Positions 12,895 through 21,818 of a DNA stretch of 51,226 bases are shown here, one piece after another. Source of the stretch: Lachnospiraceae bacterium (GTDB lineage Bacteria > Bacillota > Clostridia > Lachnospirales > Lachnospiraceae); assembly GCA_017436305.1 (NCBI GenBank), contig JAFSDJ010000106.1, forward strand, positions 1 to 51,226, read 5' to 3'. Position numbers and translations under genes: made by a program. The notes below the pieces were generated by a model. It searched no databases. It saw nothing but the letters and a program-made list of their open reading frames with translations, and was not told the origin of the DNA. The first letter of the stretch is position 1. Each line of letters starts with the position of its first letter.

Positions 12895-13486
12895 ATGAAT
12901 CAAAGTACGGATAATTTAGAAAGTGTCATAAGGATCTATAGTGACGCAGATGAGCGTAGGAAAAAAAGTTAATAAGACGGCATTAATTAGTATTACTGTT
13001 ATTGAAGTATTGTTGATTTTTGCTTTATTAGTTCAGACGTTTGCAGTGAAAACCAGTTATGGAAAAATGGGAATTTTAAGAACTGTTATATGGCAGTTTA
13101 AAGACTTATTGTTTAGTGGAAGTAATGTTGCGTTCATTAGTGTGGTTGTTAACTTTGAGATTATCATTGTTATTCATACAGTTGCTAAACTGTCAGAACG
13201 TTTTTCATATGATATGACTCAGTCTGTAAGAGATGAACAGAAAGCTCAGAGTAAAATGGTGGAAGATATTAATTCAAAGATTGGCAATCTTGTGGAATCA
13301 AATAATGGTATTATTGATAACATTCATCAGCTTTCAGCTTCCAGTGAACAAGTATCATCAAGTGCAAGAGAAGTTGAAGAGCACAGCTTGAAAAATAAAA
13401 CAGAAGCAGAGAAAGCAAAACACCTATTAAGTGAAGTTGGTGGACTTGTAGAAGAATTTGAAAAATATAAAAACAAGAATGATTAA
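12895..13486 (+). pseudogene. Shortened, frameshifted methyl-accepting chemotaxis protein
   Basis: An ATG at 12895 with a GGGGG ribosome site opens a frame reading MNQSTDNLESVIRIYSDADERRKK, which stops at 12970. The natural continuation (VNKTALISITVIEVLL, two membrane segments, then a coiled coil) lies in the +1 frame and is open to 13486. The join is a run of seven A residues at 12961-12967, and removing one A restores a single frame of about 196 residues. Even restored, the protein keeps only the membrane part and the two outer ends of the signalling coiled coil. The kinase-contact hairpin tip seen in the intact receptor at 15811 is missing. It is probably a decayed receptor. Slippage on the A run could still yield a short membrane protein. 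Confidence 0.72.
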
Positions 13487-13558: not shown

Positions 13559-14284
13559 TCATTCCTTACGTCCTTTCATGGAAATATCAAATTTCATAAA
13601 AGCAGATTTTAGAGAGGTCCATTTTCTTCTGGATACGGGTATTTTTTCGCCATTTGAAAGCAGAATAGAGTGATCTTTTAGCTGTTCAATGGCATTTAAA
13701 TTAACCAGATATTTCTTGTGGCATCGAAAGAAAAAATTAGGAGAGTTTTTTTTCTCCCATTGTAAAAGGCTCTCATCTAAAAAGTAGGTAGTTTCAAAAG
13801 TTTTTAATTCACTTCCATTTGTGGAAGCAGCGAAATATAAGATGTCCTGTATAGGAATCTTATGGGTTTTCCCACGGCGAAAGAGTATAACAGATATGTA
13901 TAGGTTAAGTTCGTCTAAACAGTCATTCAGATTCTCATATAATTCATCCTTAGTAAATGGTTTTGTCATAAAACGAAAGACCTTTGCTATATAGCCTTCC
14001 TTATACCGGGTTTCGTAGGCTGTTAGGATTAAAACCAGACTATGAGGAAAATCTTCATGGATTCGGGTTGCCCATAAAATACCATCTTCATTTTCATATC
14101 CGAAATCAAGATCCATAAAAACAATATCTACGGTTTCTTCAGTCATATACTGATAAAGGGCAGAAGGCAAGGAAAAGTATAAAACGTGAATGTCCAGCGC
14201 CTTTTCTTCCTTATAATGTAACAATAAATCCTCCAAATCTCCGGTGGTAGATTTTTTGTCATCGCAAATTGCAATTTGTATCAT
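13559..14284 (-). CDS. LytTR family response regulator (AgrA-like)
   Basis: A 241-residue two-component regulator. The receiver domain (residues 1-120) carries the acidic pair in ICDDK, the phospho-acceptor Asp58 (VFMDLD) and the conserved Lys near residue 108 (MTKPF). The C-terminal LytTR DNA-binding domain (about 135-235) shows the family pattern FFRCHKKYLVNL and IPVSRRK. It follows the kinase gene by 39 bases in the same operon. LytTR regulators bind pairs of direct repeats spaced 21 bp apart, and such a pair lies in the spacer upstream of the operon (15607-15636). The likely targets are this operon and the divergent chemoreceptor. Confidence 0.94.
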   Translation of the reverse strand: MIQIAICDDKKSTTGDLEDLLLHYKEEKALDIHVLYFSLPSALYQYMTEETVDIVFMDLDFGYENEDGILWATRIHEDFPHSLVLILTAYETRYKEGYIAKVFRFMTKPFTKDELYENLNDCLDELNLYISVILFRRGKTHKIPIQDILYFAASTNGSELKTFETTYFLDESLLQWEKKNSPNFFFRCHKKYLVNLNAIEQLKDHSILLSNGEKIPVSRRKWTSLKSAFMKFDISMKGRKE

Positions 14285-14323: not shown

Positions 14324-15532
14324 TTACAGAGGAAGATAAACAATGGTTTTTATTTTATCATCTTCTTTTGTTTGCTCAAATTCTCCATTGTATTTTTCGC
14401 ATATGTCTTTCATTTTGTGCATGCCATAGCCATGATTACGGTCTAAGGTATGAGAGCTTTTTAATTTTTTTGATATGGCATATCCATCGGGAATGGAGTT
14501 GGTGATACAAATGGAAAAAAATTTGGCTCCATAATTAAAACGTAGGGATAGCTGTGCTGTTTCTTTTTTATCACATTGGTTTGCAGCCTGAATAGCATTG
14601 GATAACATATTACTAAACAATGTGCAAAGATCAATGGAAGAAACTGTGTTGATTTCCATAAGTCGTCCGGTTACAAGTAGATTCACGTGAGGACTTAGTT
14701 TATTTGGAATGTCATAATTTAAGATAGAATCAACAATGAGATTTCCTGAAAAATACAACTTCTCCTGGAAAGAAAAAGAATTATTTAATTCGGTAAAGTA
14801 ATTGGATAATTCTTCGTAATTTTCATTTTTCAATAAGTGTTCCATTCCCAGAAAGTGTCCCTTAATATCATGGCGAAACTTTCTAAGTTCTTTATCCATC
14901 AAGTCACAACTTTGATAGTATTCTAACTGTTTTTCCACCAGATACATATTTTCAAATTCCTGTTCCTGCTCCTGCATTAAAAAACGTTCTACAAAATAAG
15001 TAATAAATAAAAAAGAAATAGCTGTAAGAGCATAAACTTCTATTCGATATGCTGTAAGCTCTATCCGGGCCGAAGGGTTGGTAGGCATCAGCTGCTCGTA
15101 GTGGTATCGATGGGCTATAAAAAGGGAAATGGTATAGCCTGCTATGTGGGTAAACATCAGCTTTGTATCAAATAAAAAAGCAACAATTCCCATAAAAATA
15201 AAACTACAGCTCCAAGCATTAGTAGTAGGGAAAAAATTCATAATACAATTGTACTGTATAAAAAGAGAAATCGTAACAAAAACCTTTATCCGAAAAATAT
15301 CTTTTTCGCTATAATAAGCAACCTTCTTTTTGTAATGGATAAAACAGAAGGATATACATAAGTACACAAGCTGGCTGAAATCAAATATAAAAACTAAAAA
15401 CCAGGGTGTATTAGGAAACCAGCCTACGGCTTTGCAAAACGTATAAGTCATACCGGCACAGATACAGTTTCCCGGAATAAGCAACAATACATAACGATAC
15501 ACATCATTCCAATATTTCTTTTGAATATTCAT
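14324..15532 (-). CDS. GHKL sensor histidine kinase with six-helix membrane sensor (AgrC-like)
   Basis: A 402-residue membrane kinase. Residues 12-185 form about six membrane segments. A coiled linker leads to the phospho-acceptor His221 (FRHDIKGH), the N box with Asn308 and Asn312 (FSNMLSNAIQAAN) and the G box HGYGMHKM (367-374). The absence of a classic D box is normal for this class. The sensor domain aligns almost without gaps with the chemoreceptor encoded divergently at 15811. Examples are GWFPNTPW (37-44) against [13 protein letters not shown] against IIQWN, and SLFIAHRYHYEQLMP against [16 protein letters not shown] ribosome site AAGGAG precedes the start. The signal is unknown. No AgrB/AgrD-like peptide genes are adjacent. 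Confidence 0.93.
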   Translation of the reverse strand: MNIQKKYWNDVYRYVLLLIPGNCICAGMTYTFCKAVGWFPNTPWFLVFIFDFSQLVYLCISFCFIHYKKKVAYYSEKDIFRIKVFVTISLFIQYNCIMNFFPTTNAWSCSFIFMGIVAFLFDTKLMFTHIAGYTISLFIAHRYHYEQLMPTNPSARIELTAYRIEVYALTAISFLFITYFVERFLMQEQEQEFENMYLVEKQLEYYQSCDLMDKELRKFRHDIKGHFLGMEHLLKNENYEELSNYFTELNNSFSFQEKLYFSGNLIVDSILNYDIPNKLSPHVNLLVTGRLMEINTVSSIDLCTLFSNMLSNAIQAANQCDKKETAQLSLRFNYGAKFFSICITNSIPDGYAISKKLKSSHTLDRNHGYGMHKMKDICEKYNGEFEQTKEDDKIKTIVYLPL

Positions 15533-15606
15533 AAAAAATTCACTCCTTATCTTTCTATTTTACATGGATAAAAAGTTTTGGCAAGTTTTATATTTAGTAC
15601 TAATGT

Positions 15607-15636
15607 ACCGTTAAACAAGAAAAAACGACCGTTTAG
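15607..15636. promoter_or_regulatory. LytTR operator: two direct repeats with 21-bp period
   Basis: ACCGTTAAA (15607-15615) and ACCGTTTAG (15628-15636) are direct repeats separated by 12 bases. This is the arrangement bound by AgrA-type LytTR proteins (nine-base sites, 12-base spacer, same face of the helix). The pair lies between the kinase operon and the chemoreceptor gene, about 10 bases upstream of where the chemoreceptor -35 box should be. The first repeat also overlaps the region where a -35 box of the kinase promoter would fall. Confidence 0.75.
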
Positions 15637-15669
15637 CAAACAAAAACAACCAAAACTATATGGAATATG

Positions 15670-15675
15670 TATAAT
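15670..15675 (+). promoter_or_regulatory. -10 box of the chemoreceptor promoter
   Basis: A perfect TATAAT lies 141 bases before the chemoreceptor start. At the expected distance upstream (about 15647-15652) there is no recognisable -35 box. That fits a promoter needing an activator, here the LytTR regulator bound at 15607-15636. Confidence 0.6.
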
Positions 15676-15710
15676 TAGTACCATACAAATATGTGTAGTG
15701 TAAAGAAACC

Positions 15711-15745
15711 AATTGTTACTTGTCAGGTTGTGGACAGTAACAATT
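15711..15745 (+). promoter_or_regulatory. Perfect inverted repeat in the chemoreceptor leader
   Basis: AATTGTTACT (15711-15720) and AGTAACAATT (15736-15745) form a perfect 10-bp stem with a 15-base loop. It lies in the roughly 130-base untranslated leader of the chemoreceptor gene. It may be an RNA hairpin or a second operator. It has no T run and is not a terminator. Confidence 0.55.
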
Positions 15746-15810
15746 TCGGGAATGCATTAAGAGGTATTATTTTCCGGAATTATTGTAAAATCGAAATGGA
15801 GGTATATTTT

Positions 15811-17355
15811 ATGGGAAGAAAGAAAACAGCAGTTGAGGTATATTTATCAGCTGTATTTAAATGGGGGCTTATTATACTGGTGAGTGCATGTATGTGTGCC
15901 ACGGTGATGTTTAACACGGAAAAGATATTTGGACTTTATCCGGATGTGCCATGGATTTCCACAATTTTATTTGCGGTTATGGATATAAGTTTTTTTGTGG
16001 CAGCACTTTTTATTGTAAAAACATCCTTTGATGAAGATGGATATTTAAAAGAGGGAAAAATAAAAGTTGGAAAATTATTTTCAGCAATTGTCCTGATTAT
16101 ACAGTGGAATTATATATTGTATATGATACCATCAAGAACCTTTTGGGGATTTTTGTTTTTCTTTTTAATTCTTATGGCATTTTTCCTTGATATTAAAATG
16201 TTACTGGCAAGCGGTCTGGCCTGTATGGTTTCTTTGTTTATTGCATGGGCAATACATGGAACTTACCTTTTACCGGTAAAGGATGAATTATTTGTTGGGG
16301 ATATTTTAATGTGTATTGTGGCACTTGTATTATCTTTAACCGGATTAACAATTTTTGTGTTTTTTGTGTCCCACTTTTTAGTAAATGCTAAAAAAGATGA
16401 ATTAGAAAAGAACAATGAGCATGTTATGAGTGTTCTGAATTCCGTAGAAGCTTTGTCAGAAAGATTATATGATGCAGGTCTGGTACTTTCCAGGGTTTCT
16501 GAAAATGAAAGTGCTTCAGCCCAGGAGCTGGCGGCTACCAGTGAGCAATTAGTAGAAAACAGCAATGAACTCAGTTTAAAGACAGAAGAGAGTGTATCAA
16601 ATCTTAGTGAGTTAAGTGAATGGGAGAGTGTAGTTGCAGGTAATGTAGAAAAAGTAGAGACAACTTCTAAAGACTTACTTCATAAGTCCAGAGAAAATGA
16701 GAGACTTTTAAATGATTTACATACAATTAACAGTGAAGTATCTGAGTCCATGCAAGCTACAACTGATATAGCTGCAAAACTGTCAAACGCAGTAGAAGAA
16801 ATTGGTGTTACATTAAAACTTATCAGCGATATTTCTTCTTCTACCAATTTGTTGGCTTTAAATGCTTCTATTGAAGCGGCAAGGGCCGGAGAGGCAGGAA
16901 GAGGCTTTGCGGTTGTTGCAACAGAAGTAGGAAATCTTGCCAATAGTACCCAGGAAACATTAAAAGAAGTAGAAAACGTTATTGAACGGGTGCAAAATAA
17001 TGTACGTGAAATTACTGCACAGGTTTTAGAAAATTCTTCAAAGCTAAGTATACAAAATGAATATTTTGCCAATGTATTTAATAGTATGCAGGATATGACA
17101 GGGCTACTGGATATTTCTGTTGGCGCAATTGATACAATGGGAGAAGCACATAGCAAACAGGCACAGGTTATTAAAAAGACAGTAGCCATTAATCAGGATA
17201 TAGCAAGTAGTATTAAGGATGAAATTGAACGGTTTAATTCTATTAATTCCATGGCTGAAAGTAATGCAAATGATACTGCGGAGGTTGCAAACCAGGCGGG
17301 TGTAATTAATGGTATGGTAGATGAAATGAGTAAATTATTAAAACGTGAGGAATAA
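15811..17355 (+). CDS. Methyl-accepting chemotaxis protein sharing the kinase's sensor domain
   Basis: A 514-residue chemoreceptor. Six membrane segments (residues about 15-190) form an integral sensor with no large extracellular domain. A cytoplasmic coiled coil follows with no clear HAMP domain. The conserved kinase-contact tip reads [20 protein letters not shown] near residues 350-370, as in canonical receptors. The sensor is homologous to that of the divergent kinase at 14324-15532. The start at 15811 follows GGAGG, and the longer frame from 15691 would add 40 polar residues without a ribosome site. Regulation by the neighbouring LytTR protein is suggested by the operator and activator-dependent promoter upstream. 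Confidence 0.93.
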
Positions 17356-17543: not shown

Positions 17544-20500
17544 CTACATCTCTCTTTCTAAATTCTTTTGTGCTGTGGAAAGCATCAGTTTAATACGATT
17601 TAACTGATTAACTTCACTGGCACCAGGATCATAGTCAATTGCTACAATATTAGAAAGTGGGTACTGTTTTCTAAGTTCTTTAATAACACCTTTTCCAACA
17701 ACATGATTAGGCAGACAGCCAAAAGGCTGAGTACATACAATGTTGTTTGTACCGGAATGGATCAGTTCTAACATTTCACCGGTTAAGAACCAGCCTTCAC
17801 CAGTCTGATTTCCAATGGATACAATCTCTTTTGCATGTTCCACGGTGTCGTAAATATTTGCTGGTGGATCAAAGTGCTTGCTTGCTTTAAGTGCCTTGGA
17901 AGCAGCGCCACGGATGTATTCCATAGCCCAGATTCCAAGTTTGGAAGTACGGGCGGTTTTTTTGGATGTTCCAAGATGCTCTGCTTTGTAAATCTGGTTG
18001 TAGAAACAGTAAAACATAAAGTCAAGCAAGTCCGGGCAAACTGCCTCAGCGCCTTCTGCCTCTAATAAATCTACTAAATAATTGTTTGCAGCAGGCAGGA
18101 ATTTTACTAAAATCTCACCTACAATACCGACCTTTGGTTTTTTCACATCAGTAATAGGAAGTGCGTCAAAATCCTCTACAATTTGCCGGCACATTTTACG
18201 GAAGGTAAAGAAGGAAGGGTGTTTTTTACTAACAAAATCCTGACATTTCTTTACCCATTTTCTATGTAATTCATTGGCAGAACCGGGAACTGCCTCGTAA
18301 GGACGCATGCGGTATAAACAGCGCATGAAAACATCACCAAACACTGCAGCATAAACAGCGCGTACTAATAAGTTTGCATTTAACTTAAAGCCGGGATTGG
18401 TTTCAATACCGCCGAGGTTTAGGGAAATAACCGGAATATGAGCCATACCGGCTTTTTCTAAGGCACGTCTGATAAATCCAACATAGTTAGTAGCACGGCA
18501 ACCACCACCGGTCTGGGACATTACAACAGCAACCTTATTTAAGTCATATTTACCGGATAGCAGTGCATCCATAATCTGACCTACTACGATTAAGGAAGGG
18601 TAGCAGGCATCGTTATTTACATATTTTAAGCCTACGTTTACTGCCTGCTTATTGTCATTTGGAAGTACTTCAAAGTTATAACCGCAGGCATTAAAAGCAC
18701 TGCACAAAATTTCAAAATGAATTGGCGACATCTGAGGGCAGAGGATAGTATAATCCTTTCTCATTTCCTCAGTAAAGGAAACTTTATTGATAGCACTGGA
18801 ACGAATTACTCGTTCTTCGTTTAACTGTTCCTTTACACGGATAGCAGCAAGGAGAGAACGGATTCGGATTCTCGCTGCACCTAGGTTATTTACCTCGTCA
18901 ATTTTTAAACATGTATAAATCTTGTCAGAACCGGATAAAATGTCATTTACCTGATCGGTTGTTACCGCATCCAGACCACAGCCAAAAGAGTTTAACTGAA
19001 TCAAATCCAGATAATCGGTAGTTCTTACAAAGCTTGCAGCAGCATACAACCGGGAATGATACATCCACTGATCAGATACAATTAGTGGACGTTCCGGTTT
19101 ACCTAAATGGGAAATGGAGTCCTCCGTTAATACTGCAACGTCATAAGAATTAATTAATTCCGGTATACCATGATTGATTTCGGGATCAATATGATAAGGA
19201 CGACCGGCAAGAACAATTCCACGTTTGCCTGTTTTTTTCAGATAGGCAATAGTTTCTTCGCCCTTTTTCTTCATATCTTCTCTGGCAAGAGCCATTTCTT
19301 CAAACCCTTTTGCAATGGCTGCCATTAACTCAGCTTTTGGAATGTCTTTAAAAGTATCTTTAAGACCTGTATAAATAGTGTCAACACTTTCAAAGGACAT
19401 AAATGGATTCTCGAAACGGATATCACCATTTCCGATTTCTTCCACGTTATTTTTTATATTTTCTGAATAGGAAGTAACAATCGGGCAGTTGTAATGATTG
19501 TTAGCCCCCTCTACTTCGTTTCTTTCATAGAAAAGAGCTGGATAGAAAATATAGTTAACACCCTGTTTAATCAGCCAGCTAACATGTCCATGGGCAAGTT
19601 TAGCCGGATAACATTCGGACTCACTAGGGATGGACTCAATACCAAGCTCATAAATTTTATGAGTAGAAGATGGAGAGAGTACAACCTGATATTTCAGTTC
19701 TGTAAAAAATGTATGCCAGAATGGGTAGTTTTCGTACATATTCAGTACTCTTGGAATACCTACCTGACCTCTTATGGCTTCATCAATTGGTAAGGATTCA
19801 TAACCAAAAATTCGGTTTAACTTATAGTCATAAAGGTTGATTACGTCTTTTTTGGACTTCTCTTTTCCAAGACCACGCTCACAGCGGTTGCCGGAGATAA
19901 ACTGACGTCCACCTGTAAACTGGTTAATGGTTAAACGACAGTTATTGGTACAGCCTTTACATTTTGCCATTCTGGTAGTAAATTCCAGCTGGTTAATCTT
20001 CTCAATAGAAAGCATGGTAGTGTCTTCAAAAACACCGCCATCCATTTTCTTTTCGAAAGCTTTTAATTTTTCATGATAACGTTCTTTTGCAATTAAAGCC
20101 GCACCGAAGGCACCCATAATACCTGCAATATCAGGACGGATTGCTTCACAGCCTGCAATTTTTTCAAAGCTTCTAAGTACTGCATCGTTATAGAAGGTAC
20201 CACCCTGAACGACAATTTTTTTACCAAGTTCAGAGGCATCAGACACTTTAATTACTTTAAATAAAGCATTTTTAATAACTGAGTAAGCAAGTCCGGCAGA
20301 AATATCCGATACTTCCGCACCTTCCTTTTGAGCCTGTTTTACTTTGGAGTTCATAAATACGGTACAACGGGTTCCGAGGTCAATTGGATGCTTTGCAAAT
20401 AAAGCAGCAGCGGCAAAATCCTGCACGCTGTAATTTAAGGATTTTGCAAAGGTTTCAATAAAGGAACCACAGCCGGAGGAGCAGGCTTCGTTTAATTGAA

Positions 20501-21818
20501 CGCTGTCAACAGTGTGATTTTTAATCTTAATACATTTCATATCCTGACCACCAATGTCAAGGATACAGTCCACGTCAGGAGCAAAGAAAGCAGCCGCATT
20601 GTAGTGGGCAACTGTTTCAACCTCGCCTTCATCCAACATAAAAGCAGCCTTGATTAAAGCCTCTCCGTAACCGGTAGAGCAAGAGTGGACAATTTTGGCT
20701 TCCTTTGGCAGGAAAGAATAAATGTCTTTGATAGCATTGATGGAGGTCTGCAAAGGGCTACCGTTATTATTACTGTAAAAGGAGTAAAGTAAGGTTCCGT
20801 CTTCTGCTACCAAAGCAACCTTAGTTGTGGTACTTCCTGCGTCAATTCCAAGATAACAGTTTCCTTTGTAGGTTTCTAATTTTCTTGTTTTAACTTTATG
20901 ACTGCTGTGACGGGATTTAAACATCTCATATTCAGTTTTAGTGGCAAATAACGGCTCCATACGTTCTACTTCAAATTCCATTTTTATAGGAGCAGTTAGT
21001 TTTTCTACCATTTCCTTCATAGTATAGGAAACGTCTTCTTTAGCATTTAATGCAGAGCCCATGGCTGCAAATAAATGAGAGTGTCCCGGCGCAATAATGT
21101 GCTCATCATCTAATTTTAAAGTACGAATAAAGGCTTCCTTTAACTGGTCTAAAAAGTGAAGGGGACCACCTAAGAAAGCAACATGACCACGAATTGGTTT
21201 ACCACAGGCAAGACCGCTGATTGTCTGGTTTACAACTGCCTGAAAAATAGAAGCTGCCAAATCTTCTTTTGTGGCACCTTCATTAATTAACGGCTGAATA
21301 TCAGATTTGGCAAATACACCACAGCGGGCTGCAATAGTGTAAAGAGACTGATAGCCCTTTGCGTATTCATTTAAGCCGGAGGCATCGGTTTGAAGCAAGG
21401 ATGCCATCTGGTCAATGAAAGAACCGGTACCACCTGCACAGATTCCGTTCATACGCTGTTCCACATTGCCGCCTTCAAAATAAATGATTTTAGCATCTTC
21501 ACCGCCAAGTTCAATGGCAACATCTGTCTGTGGAGCATAATCGGTCAGTGCAGAAGATACTGCAATAACCTCCTGAACAAAAGGAATTTCCAAATGGTTA
21601 GCCAGTGTTAACCCGCCGGAGCCTGTAATAACAGGATGCAGTGTAATATCGCCTAAAGAGCCATATGCTTTTTTTAACAAATCAGATAACGTTTCTTTAA
21701 TATTTGCAAAGTGTCGTTCATAGTCTGAAAACACCATATTATTTTTGCTATCTAAAATAGCAATTTTTACTGTGGTTGACCCAATGTCAATACCCAAAGT
21801 ATAATTATTAGCAGTCAT
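17544..21818 (-). CDS. Double acyl-CoA-dehydratase-activase fusion Fe-S protein (DUF2229)
   Basis: A 1424-residue cytosolic protein. Two activase-type ATPase modules come first: one from residue 5 ([11 protein letters not shown]) and one from about 323 ([11 protein letters not shown]). Each has the paired cysteines that hold a shared [4Fe-4S] cluster ([10 protein letters not shown] with AARCGVF, and [10 protein letters not shown] with GTRCTVF). A four-cysteine segment follows (CKGCTNNC ... NRCERG), then a DUF2229 region, then a C-terminal part resembling the 2-hydroxyglutaryl-CoA dehydratase D subunit and double-cubane cluster proteins ([18 protein letters not shown]). Such systems drive electrons to very low potential with ATP. 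Here activator and reductase are on one chain and no separate dehydratase genes are adjacent. The substrate is unknown. Confidence 0.9.

Follow-up and report, generated by a model that had tools for sequence, protein, structure and literature searches.

A membrane sensor domain common to a LytTR-linked histidine kinase and a divergently encoded chemoreceptor of Lachnospiraceae, and the chemosensory unit they may form

In the genome of a Lachnospiraceae bacterium (assembly GCA_017436305.1), the genes of a sensor histidine kinase and of a chemoreceptor, i.e., a methyl-accepting chemotaxis protein (MCP), diverge from a common intergenic region of contig JAFSDJ010000106.1, whose positions 1 to 51,226 constitute the stretch of DNA analysed here, hereafter the window. 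As judged from sequence comparison, the membrane parts of the two proteins are homologous and the domain they have in common is a new MASE-like sensor, found mostly on chemoreceptors. Together with the LytTR response regulator encoded alongside the kinase, they probably constitute a three-gene chemosensory unit operating in series, where the kinase would act on the regulator, the regulator on the expression of the receptor and the receptor on chemotaxis. While the parts are of known kinds, the domain, which no Pfam model recognises, and the combination are new. The unit provides a conserved instance where a two-component system is predicted to control the gene of a chemoreceptor and where the sensors of both are homologous; since it couples one membrane-embedded sensor to a transcriptional kinase, a reporter on the receptor promoter would offer a simple search for the cue.

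The kinase and the chemoreceptor of the window

The kinase (402 aa; 14324..15532, reverse strand) is of the GHKL (AgrC-type) kind, with HATPase_c_5 over aa 299-401 at 60.8 bits versus a cut-off of 22 (E 1.3e-16) and a phosphoacceptor motif, RHDI, invariant in the 10 rows formed by the window kinase and nine relatives. The divergent gene (15811..17355, forward strand) encodes a chemoreceptor of 514 aa, where MCPsignal scores 90.6 bits versus a cut-off of 34.6 (E 1.3e-25), the MCP signalling domain with its hairpin tip spans 16732..17178 on the forward strand (Pfam, aa 348-496 of the long open reading frame) and no HAMP domain is detected by Pfam. Its start is most likely the ATG at 15811 rather than 15691, because a ribosome-binding site, GGAGG, can be read at 15798..15802 (forward strand) and a start at 15691 would be within less than 10 nt of where transcription is predicted to begin. 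In both proteins, aa 1-201 make up the membrane sensor domain of about six helices, i.e., 14930..15532 on the reverse strand for the kinase and 15811..16413 on the forward strand for the chemoreceptor, as delimited from alignments and outside any Pfam family.

The original prediction had described the two membrane regions as collinear, and the genes are indeed found where it placed them, all four pairs of motifs it quoted being present. A single-gap BLASTP alignment of 189 columns, joining kinase aa 7-194 to receptor aa 51-239 (numbered in the long open reading frame), gives 25% identity, 77.8 bits and E 9e-20, and the profile comparison of the two regions, which had been proposed as a check, is significant as well, the kinase-only and receptor-only profiles aligning with a probability of 100 and E 1.1e-43 over 205 columns. 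Both proteins being hydrophobic and multi-helix, their similarity could in principle reflect helix composition only, but this explanation can be dismissed with near certainty. Besides the BLASTP and profile results, the Smith-Waterman score of 198 between the two sensors compares with a mean of 40 and a maximum of 84 in 1000 shuffles preserving the hydrophobic/polar pattern (z 20), and with a mean of 45 and a maximum of 92 in 1000 shuffles within 10-residue windows (z 15), altogether 15-22 standard deviations above shuffles, while the N-termini of eight other polytopic kinases remain at background (27-46). Because no shuffle or unrelated polytopic kinase approaches 198, composition is ruled out as the source of the similarity. 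Local homogenisation of the two sensors was also rejected, the window kinase being nearer to the receptor of the second such locus of the genome (L007; 30%) than to its own (23-25%).

From alignment and a crude hydropathy scan, the domain comprises about six helices with short loops, and its charged segments indicate that both ends would be inside. Residues Y7, K83, Q93, P102, W107, F113 and D122 (kinase numbering) are kept in at least 81% of rows, whether one considers the kinases, the receptors or the six proteins with other outputs. In agreement with the suspicion that the domain had no named family, a Pfam scan placed 0 of 31 members above any curated cut-off; below threshold, DUF6773 is the family most often matched (by six members, at best with E 0.023), and a TMEM260-like match in one member has the lowest E, 0.0042. 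A PDB profile search with the domain matched no chain up to E 10. The sensors are nonetheless well connected to each other, since by BLAST at E < 1e-5 among 33 of them, 18 reach all 33 and the least connected reaches 26. With several helices, no large extracytoplasmic part and a position N-terminal to varied outputs, the domain has the features of MASE-type sensors.

Recurrence of the arrangement and signals upstream of the receptor gene

The divergent kinase-regulator/receptor arrangement occurs at 15 loci, of which two lie within the window's genome (the window and L007), others in further sampled genomes (L039 and L040 in G131, L045 in G147, L052 in G151) and the remainder in named records (L068, the damaged L072, L074, L079, L082, L084, L095, L108 and L110). 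A receptor-independent search of 397 genomes for the kinase only retrieved eight kinases (at least 274 bits, the next match being at 170): six have a domain receptor encoded divergently beside them, a further one in G147 is parted only by its own regulator gene from a receptor already counted among these, and the one in G074 begins 273 nt from a contig end, where the neighbourhood is not judgeable. GHKL kinases with the domain thus adjoin a receptor, with at most their own regulator between, in 7/7 testable cases. On the receptor side, such a kinase is present at 10 of 80 named loci (L139, identical to L039, among them), so the frequent co-location that had been anticipated is asymmetric. All 16 kinase loci have the regulator and the kinase, and all but L051, at a contig end, the receptor; no other family is present in more than 4/16. 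A cluster of 13 loci, considered as an additional gene of the unit, proved from its coordinates to be an antisense frame of the receptor. At L045:5623-11406, one receptor is flanked by two kinase-regulator operons bearing the domain.

In the window, the LytTR regulator (241 aa; 13559..14284, reverse strand; Pfam Response_reg E 1.3e-9, LytTR E 7.9e-23) is encoded next to the kinase, and the LytTR operator claimed between the divergent genes is present, as sequence, at 15607-15636. It consists of the tandem LytTR-type half-sites ACCGTTAAA (15607..15615) and ACCGTTTAG (15628..15636), set 21 bp apart on the forward strand. On this same strand come a -35 position, CAACCA (15647..15652), with 2/6 consensus matches, and the -10 box TATAAT (15670..15675) of the promoter predicted for the chemoreceptor gene, which begins 42 bp after the second half-site does. 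According to the promoters tabulated in PMC6193735, LytTR regulatory systems have 9-bp direct repeats, in most cases separated by 12 bp and located about 10 bp before the -35. Here too, two 9-bp direct repeats, with a separation inside the 11-13 bp range, stand close upstream of the predicted promoter, and 42 equals 9 + 10 + 6 + 17, which matches that tabulated layout. At 13 of 14 loci, a -10 box with at least 5/6 matches lies 42 bp (nine loci) or 43 bp (four loci) from the second half-site, and the -35 position of the same layout has 0-3 of 6 consensus matches, as expected of an activator-dependent promoter.

A loose pattern of two ACC-type half-sites with this 21-bp spacing, read from the very loci later counted, is found upstream of 14/15 paired receptors versus 7/81 others (Fisher p 6.7e-11); it appears in 4-6% of shuffles and in the kinase direction at 1/15 loci only. 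As the motif had been seen before counting, two less circular tests were therefore run. The first one, motif-free, finds a tandem repeat placed relative to the -10 with at least 9/12 matches at 11/15 paired versus 6/76 lone receptors (Mann-Whitney p 6.5e-7). By the second one, the exact site ACCGTTN15ACCGTT has two occurrences in the window's genome (84% complete), i.e., before its two pairs. These conserved intergenic signals suggest that the partner LytTR regulator activates the receptor gene.

Considering gene order, the operon and the domain type, the kinase would phosphorylate the neighbouring regulator, which, as predicted from the conserved site and its geometry, would bind the two half-sites in the shared intergenic region and activate the receptor promoter with its perfect -10 and poor -35. 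The receptor would be built once the kinase has sensed a cue and, as its signalling domain and co-occurrence with CheW indicate, would feed the CheA/CheW pathway and steer swimming. CheW is present in 26/26 genomes with the domain versus 222/397 overall (hypergeometric 1.4e-7, uncorrected for relatedness), and three CheW and four flagellin matches were found in the window's genome. The original prediction had envisaged one stimulus driving both gene expression, through LytTR, and swimming. Taken as parallel outputs, the cue would drive a LytTR regulon of other genes and, independently, swimming, the operator then serving the kinase operon. Such a scheme suits the divergent layout as well as the autoregulation described for LytTR systems in PMC6193735. 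It is nevertheless improbable, as the half-sites have a direction and, at 13/14 loci, a position that suits the receptor promoter, the pattern on the other strand being limited to one locus, and, though real sites can be degenerate, the exact sites of the genome stand only before the two pairs. The operator geometry indicates activation of the chemoreceptor gene itself, so that the outputs are probably in series; this reading is preferred because the half-sites point at the receptor and the exact site is restricted to the pairs. Less probable still is a direct action of the receptor on the kinase, e.g., in a mixed sensor complex formed via the shared helices, rather than a role mainly in chemotaxis. 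Homologous sensors, adjacent genes and an unusual residue in the signalling tip would be compatible with it, but the tip is otherwise intact, CheW accompanies the domain in all 26 of these genomes and most receptors are without such a kinase partner.

Besides the circularity mentioned above, several observations weigh against the serial unit. The usual form of the MCP signalling tip is EVRxLA, and that of the window receptor reads EVGNLA. Most receptors with the domain have no such kinase alongside. Within the window's genome, operator sites (exact/one-mismatch) are not in excess once one mismatch is allowed, with 17 versus 58 in the reversed control. Among the divergent loci, L040 has poor half-sites (the first being ACCGAATCC) and its motif-free match is a different repeat, L007, L040 and L068 have equally good -10 boxes at other offsets, the -10 of L079 is at offset 24 and the damaged L072 is without site. 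Last, at five loci (L008, L080, L104, L115 and L116), the receptor lies downstream of a LytTR system in which the kinase sensor is unrelated, so that a shared sensor is not required for such a layout.

At these five co-directional loci, the regulators are all LytTR proteins. One of them (L008:2232-5754) holds the third domain receptor of the window's genome, whose gene comes after those of a LytTR regulator and of a kinase unrelated in its sensor. Upstream of this receptor, a different tandem repeat of 21 bp, AACAAAAATCAG / AACAAAAATTAG, is placed as expected relative to a -10 box, with 11/12 matches. The positioned tandem repeat of L115 reaches 10/12; at L080, a 20-bp repeat can be seen by eye where the script scores 4/12, and L104 (7) and L116 (6) have no positioned tandem repeat. 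Taken as a group, the five loci do not reach significance (p 0.15). Kinship of their kinase sensors to the domain was rejected from hhalign probabilities of 0.3, 0.2 and 3.1% (the latter for L008), obtained with profiles built from only one or two distinct sequences. Elsewhere, at L119:4094-7524, a domain receptor with a positioned tandem repeat of 9/12 has, encoded divergently from it, a LytTR regulator as well as a short GHKL kinase devoid of the domain. Receptors with the domain may thus have been put repeatedly under neighbouring LytTR control, the kinase having the same sensor in one lineage.

Candidate cues, evolution and distribution of the domain

Because the two sensors are homologous, the kinase and the receptor could respond to the same or a chemically related cue; for one and the same cue, the chances appear about even. 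A more specific proposal, to which we give somewhat less than an even chance, is a gated chemotaxis, where the cue of the kinase would act through a dedicated LytTR regulator having the neighbouring receptor as main or only target, and where the receptor would read this same cue. If so, a receptor for swimming would be made only where its cue exists, and a single kind of cue could be relayed to several outputs within the family, since the domain is also carried by cyclic di-GMP (c-di-GMP) enzymes and hybrid kinases. Equally to be entertained, as a tentative view, is that the regulator activates the receptor gene but that kinase and receptor read different cues, the domain being a common scaffold with diverged pockets.

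In a quick tree without bootstrap, the sensors of the 16 GHKL kinases group in a single clade (Shimodaira-Hasegawa-like approximate likelihood ratio test, SH-aLRT, 100) on a long branch of 1.68 changes per column, and some conserved residues are peculiar to them, whereas the paired receptors (L103 included) are dispersed over the receptor tree, with at least five changes needed. The closest pair of loci, i.e., the window and L039, shows 59% identity between the kinase sensors and 87% between the receptor sensors. All this is in favour of different cues, as is the unrelated sensor of the LytTR-linked kinase that precedes a domain receptor at L008, in the same genome; on the other hand, each output class keeps the core Y, K, Q, P, W, F and D in at least 81% of its rows, and all seven testable kinases adjoin a domain receptor. 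Over the loci, mean identities are 45% for the kinase sensor, 49% for the kinase catalytic part, 52% for the regulator (12 loci), 54% for the receptor sensor and 53% for the receptor signalling part. The kinase sensor tracks the regulator closely (Mantel r 0.92, 12 loci), the receptor sensor only weakly (Mantel r 0.33, p 0.04, 12 loci), which speaks for kinase and regulator having stayed together while the receptors were in part exchanged. This exchange weakens the claim of an identical stimulus, and so does the distance between kinase and receptor sensors, which have about 25% identity and fall in separate clades.

Among the sampled genomes, the domain is nearly confined to Lachnospiraceae. 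A five-member profile, run over 299 whole genomes of the family with at most 10 candidates scored per genome, matched 23 of them, two through PnuC-type transporters (L063:5594-6388 and L064:5896-6684) whose weak, partial matches (E 3e-4 and 5e-4) possibly reflect chance or a remote relation. The kinase profile at E 1e-10 matched 26/397 genomes, G166, found by the five-member profile, falling below. In 398 phylum-wide genomes, few of them from Lachnospiraceae, the matches of the kinase profile were the window's genome and one from another family of the class. The scan reaching outside the phylum was solely a receptor-biased one, and the 80 records kept are mostly labelled Lachnospiraceae or relatives, the few other labels (Oscillospiraceae, Clostridium, Thermoflexaceae, Bacillus) being on metagenome bins.

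The 136 domain-bearing reading frames of the examined loci, a receptor-biased sample, comprise 107 chemoreceptors, 17 GHKL kinases (one a duplicate record), three HisKA hybrids, two GGDEF proteins, one GGDEF-GGDEF-EAL protein and six split-gene pieces or contig run-offs. The hybrids (L057, L103 and L198) carry HisKA, HATPase and receiver domains, with Hpt in addition for L057. At L103:4515-8518, the gene of a domain receptor has directly downstream, in the same orientation, that of a hybrid kinase (HisKA, HATPase, two receivers) also carrying the domain, which by its gene content is a second kind of receptor/kinase pairing. Tandem c-di-GMP proteins, namely sensor-GGDEF and sensor-GGDEF-GGDEF-EAL, are found at L055:5949-9554, both with the new domain. 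Some receptors with the domain (L043, L049, L059, L094 and L123) are split over two frames or by a stop.

Nearby in the window, 12895-13486 (forward strand) encodes a short chemoreceptor-like protein with about two helices, a coiled coil and a weak MCPsignal match; an upstream ATG sits in another frame, the protein is the sole match within the genome and it looks like a remnant. On the other side, 17544-21818 (reverse strand) encodes a 1424-aa protein of the BadF/BadG CoA-enzyme activase and DUF2229 type.

Comparison with known systems

Literature searches, mostly in freely accessible papers, found no description of the domain or of the unit. Known MASE-type domains stand N-terminal to varied outputs and Pfam includes models for them. 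Unlike these families, the present domain is recognised by no Pfam model in its 31 members and its conserved residues are its own. The MASE-type domains (MASE1, MASE2 and later ones) likewise comprise several helices without structured extracytoplasmic part (PMC12415202). In that study of gut bacterial receptors, Cache accounts for about a third of transmembrane chemoreceptors and 4HB and MASE-type for the rest, the MASE-type receptors having been excluded for lack of a structured outer domain (PMC12415202).

With the AgrC/AgrA type, the unit has in common a multi-helix sensor, a GHKL ATPase, a LytTR regulator and tandem half-sites, but its conserved neighbour is a chemoreceptor; the window kinase matches AgrC weakly, below the cut-off (NCBIfam E 0.005). 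An Agr peptide system was rejected, as there is no agrB at the locus and the genome has its sole AgrB match on another contig, C83 (agrD was not searched for).

Sharing of a sensor between kinases and a chemoreceptor has a precedent in the PilJ domain, homologous in the kinases NarX/NarQ and in the chemoreceptor McpN, both nitrate-binding (PMC6381276); there, the domain differs in being periplasmic, and mcpN transcript levels are unchanged upon loss of NarX. For the control of a chemoreceptor gene by a two-component system, AioSR/Mcp of Agrobacterium tumefaciens GW4 is a functional precedent, where the regulator binds and activates a chemoreceptor gene, the two-component system and the receptor having one stimulus, arsenite, in common (PMC5335332). 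There, the regulator belongs to another family, and the abstract makes no mention of a sensor domain common to kinase and receptor. Finally, the LytTR regulatory systems described in PMC6193735 have as partner an inhibitory membrane protein, in place of which a kinase and a chemoreceptor are found here.

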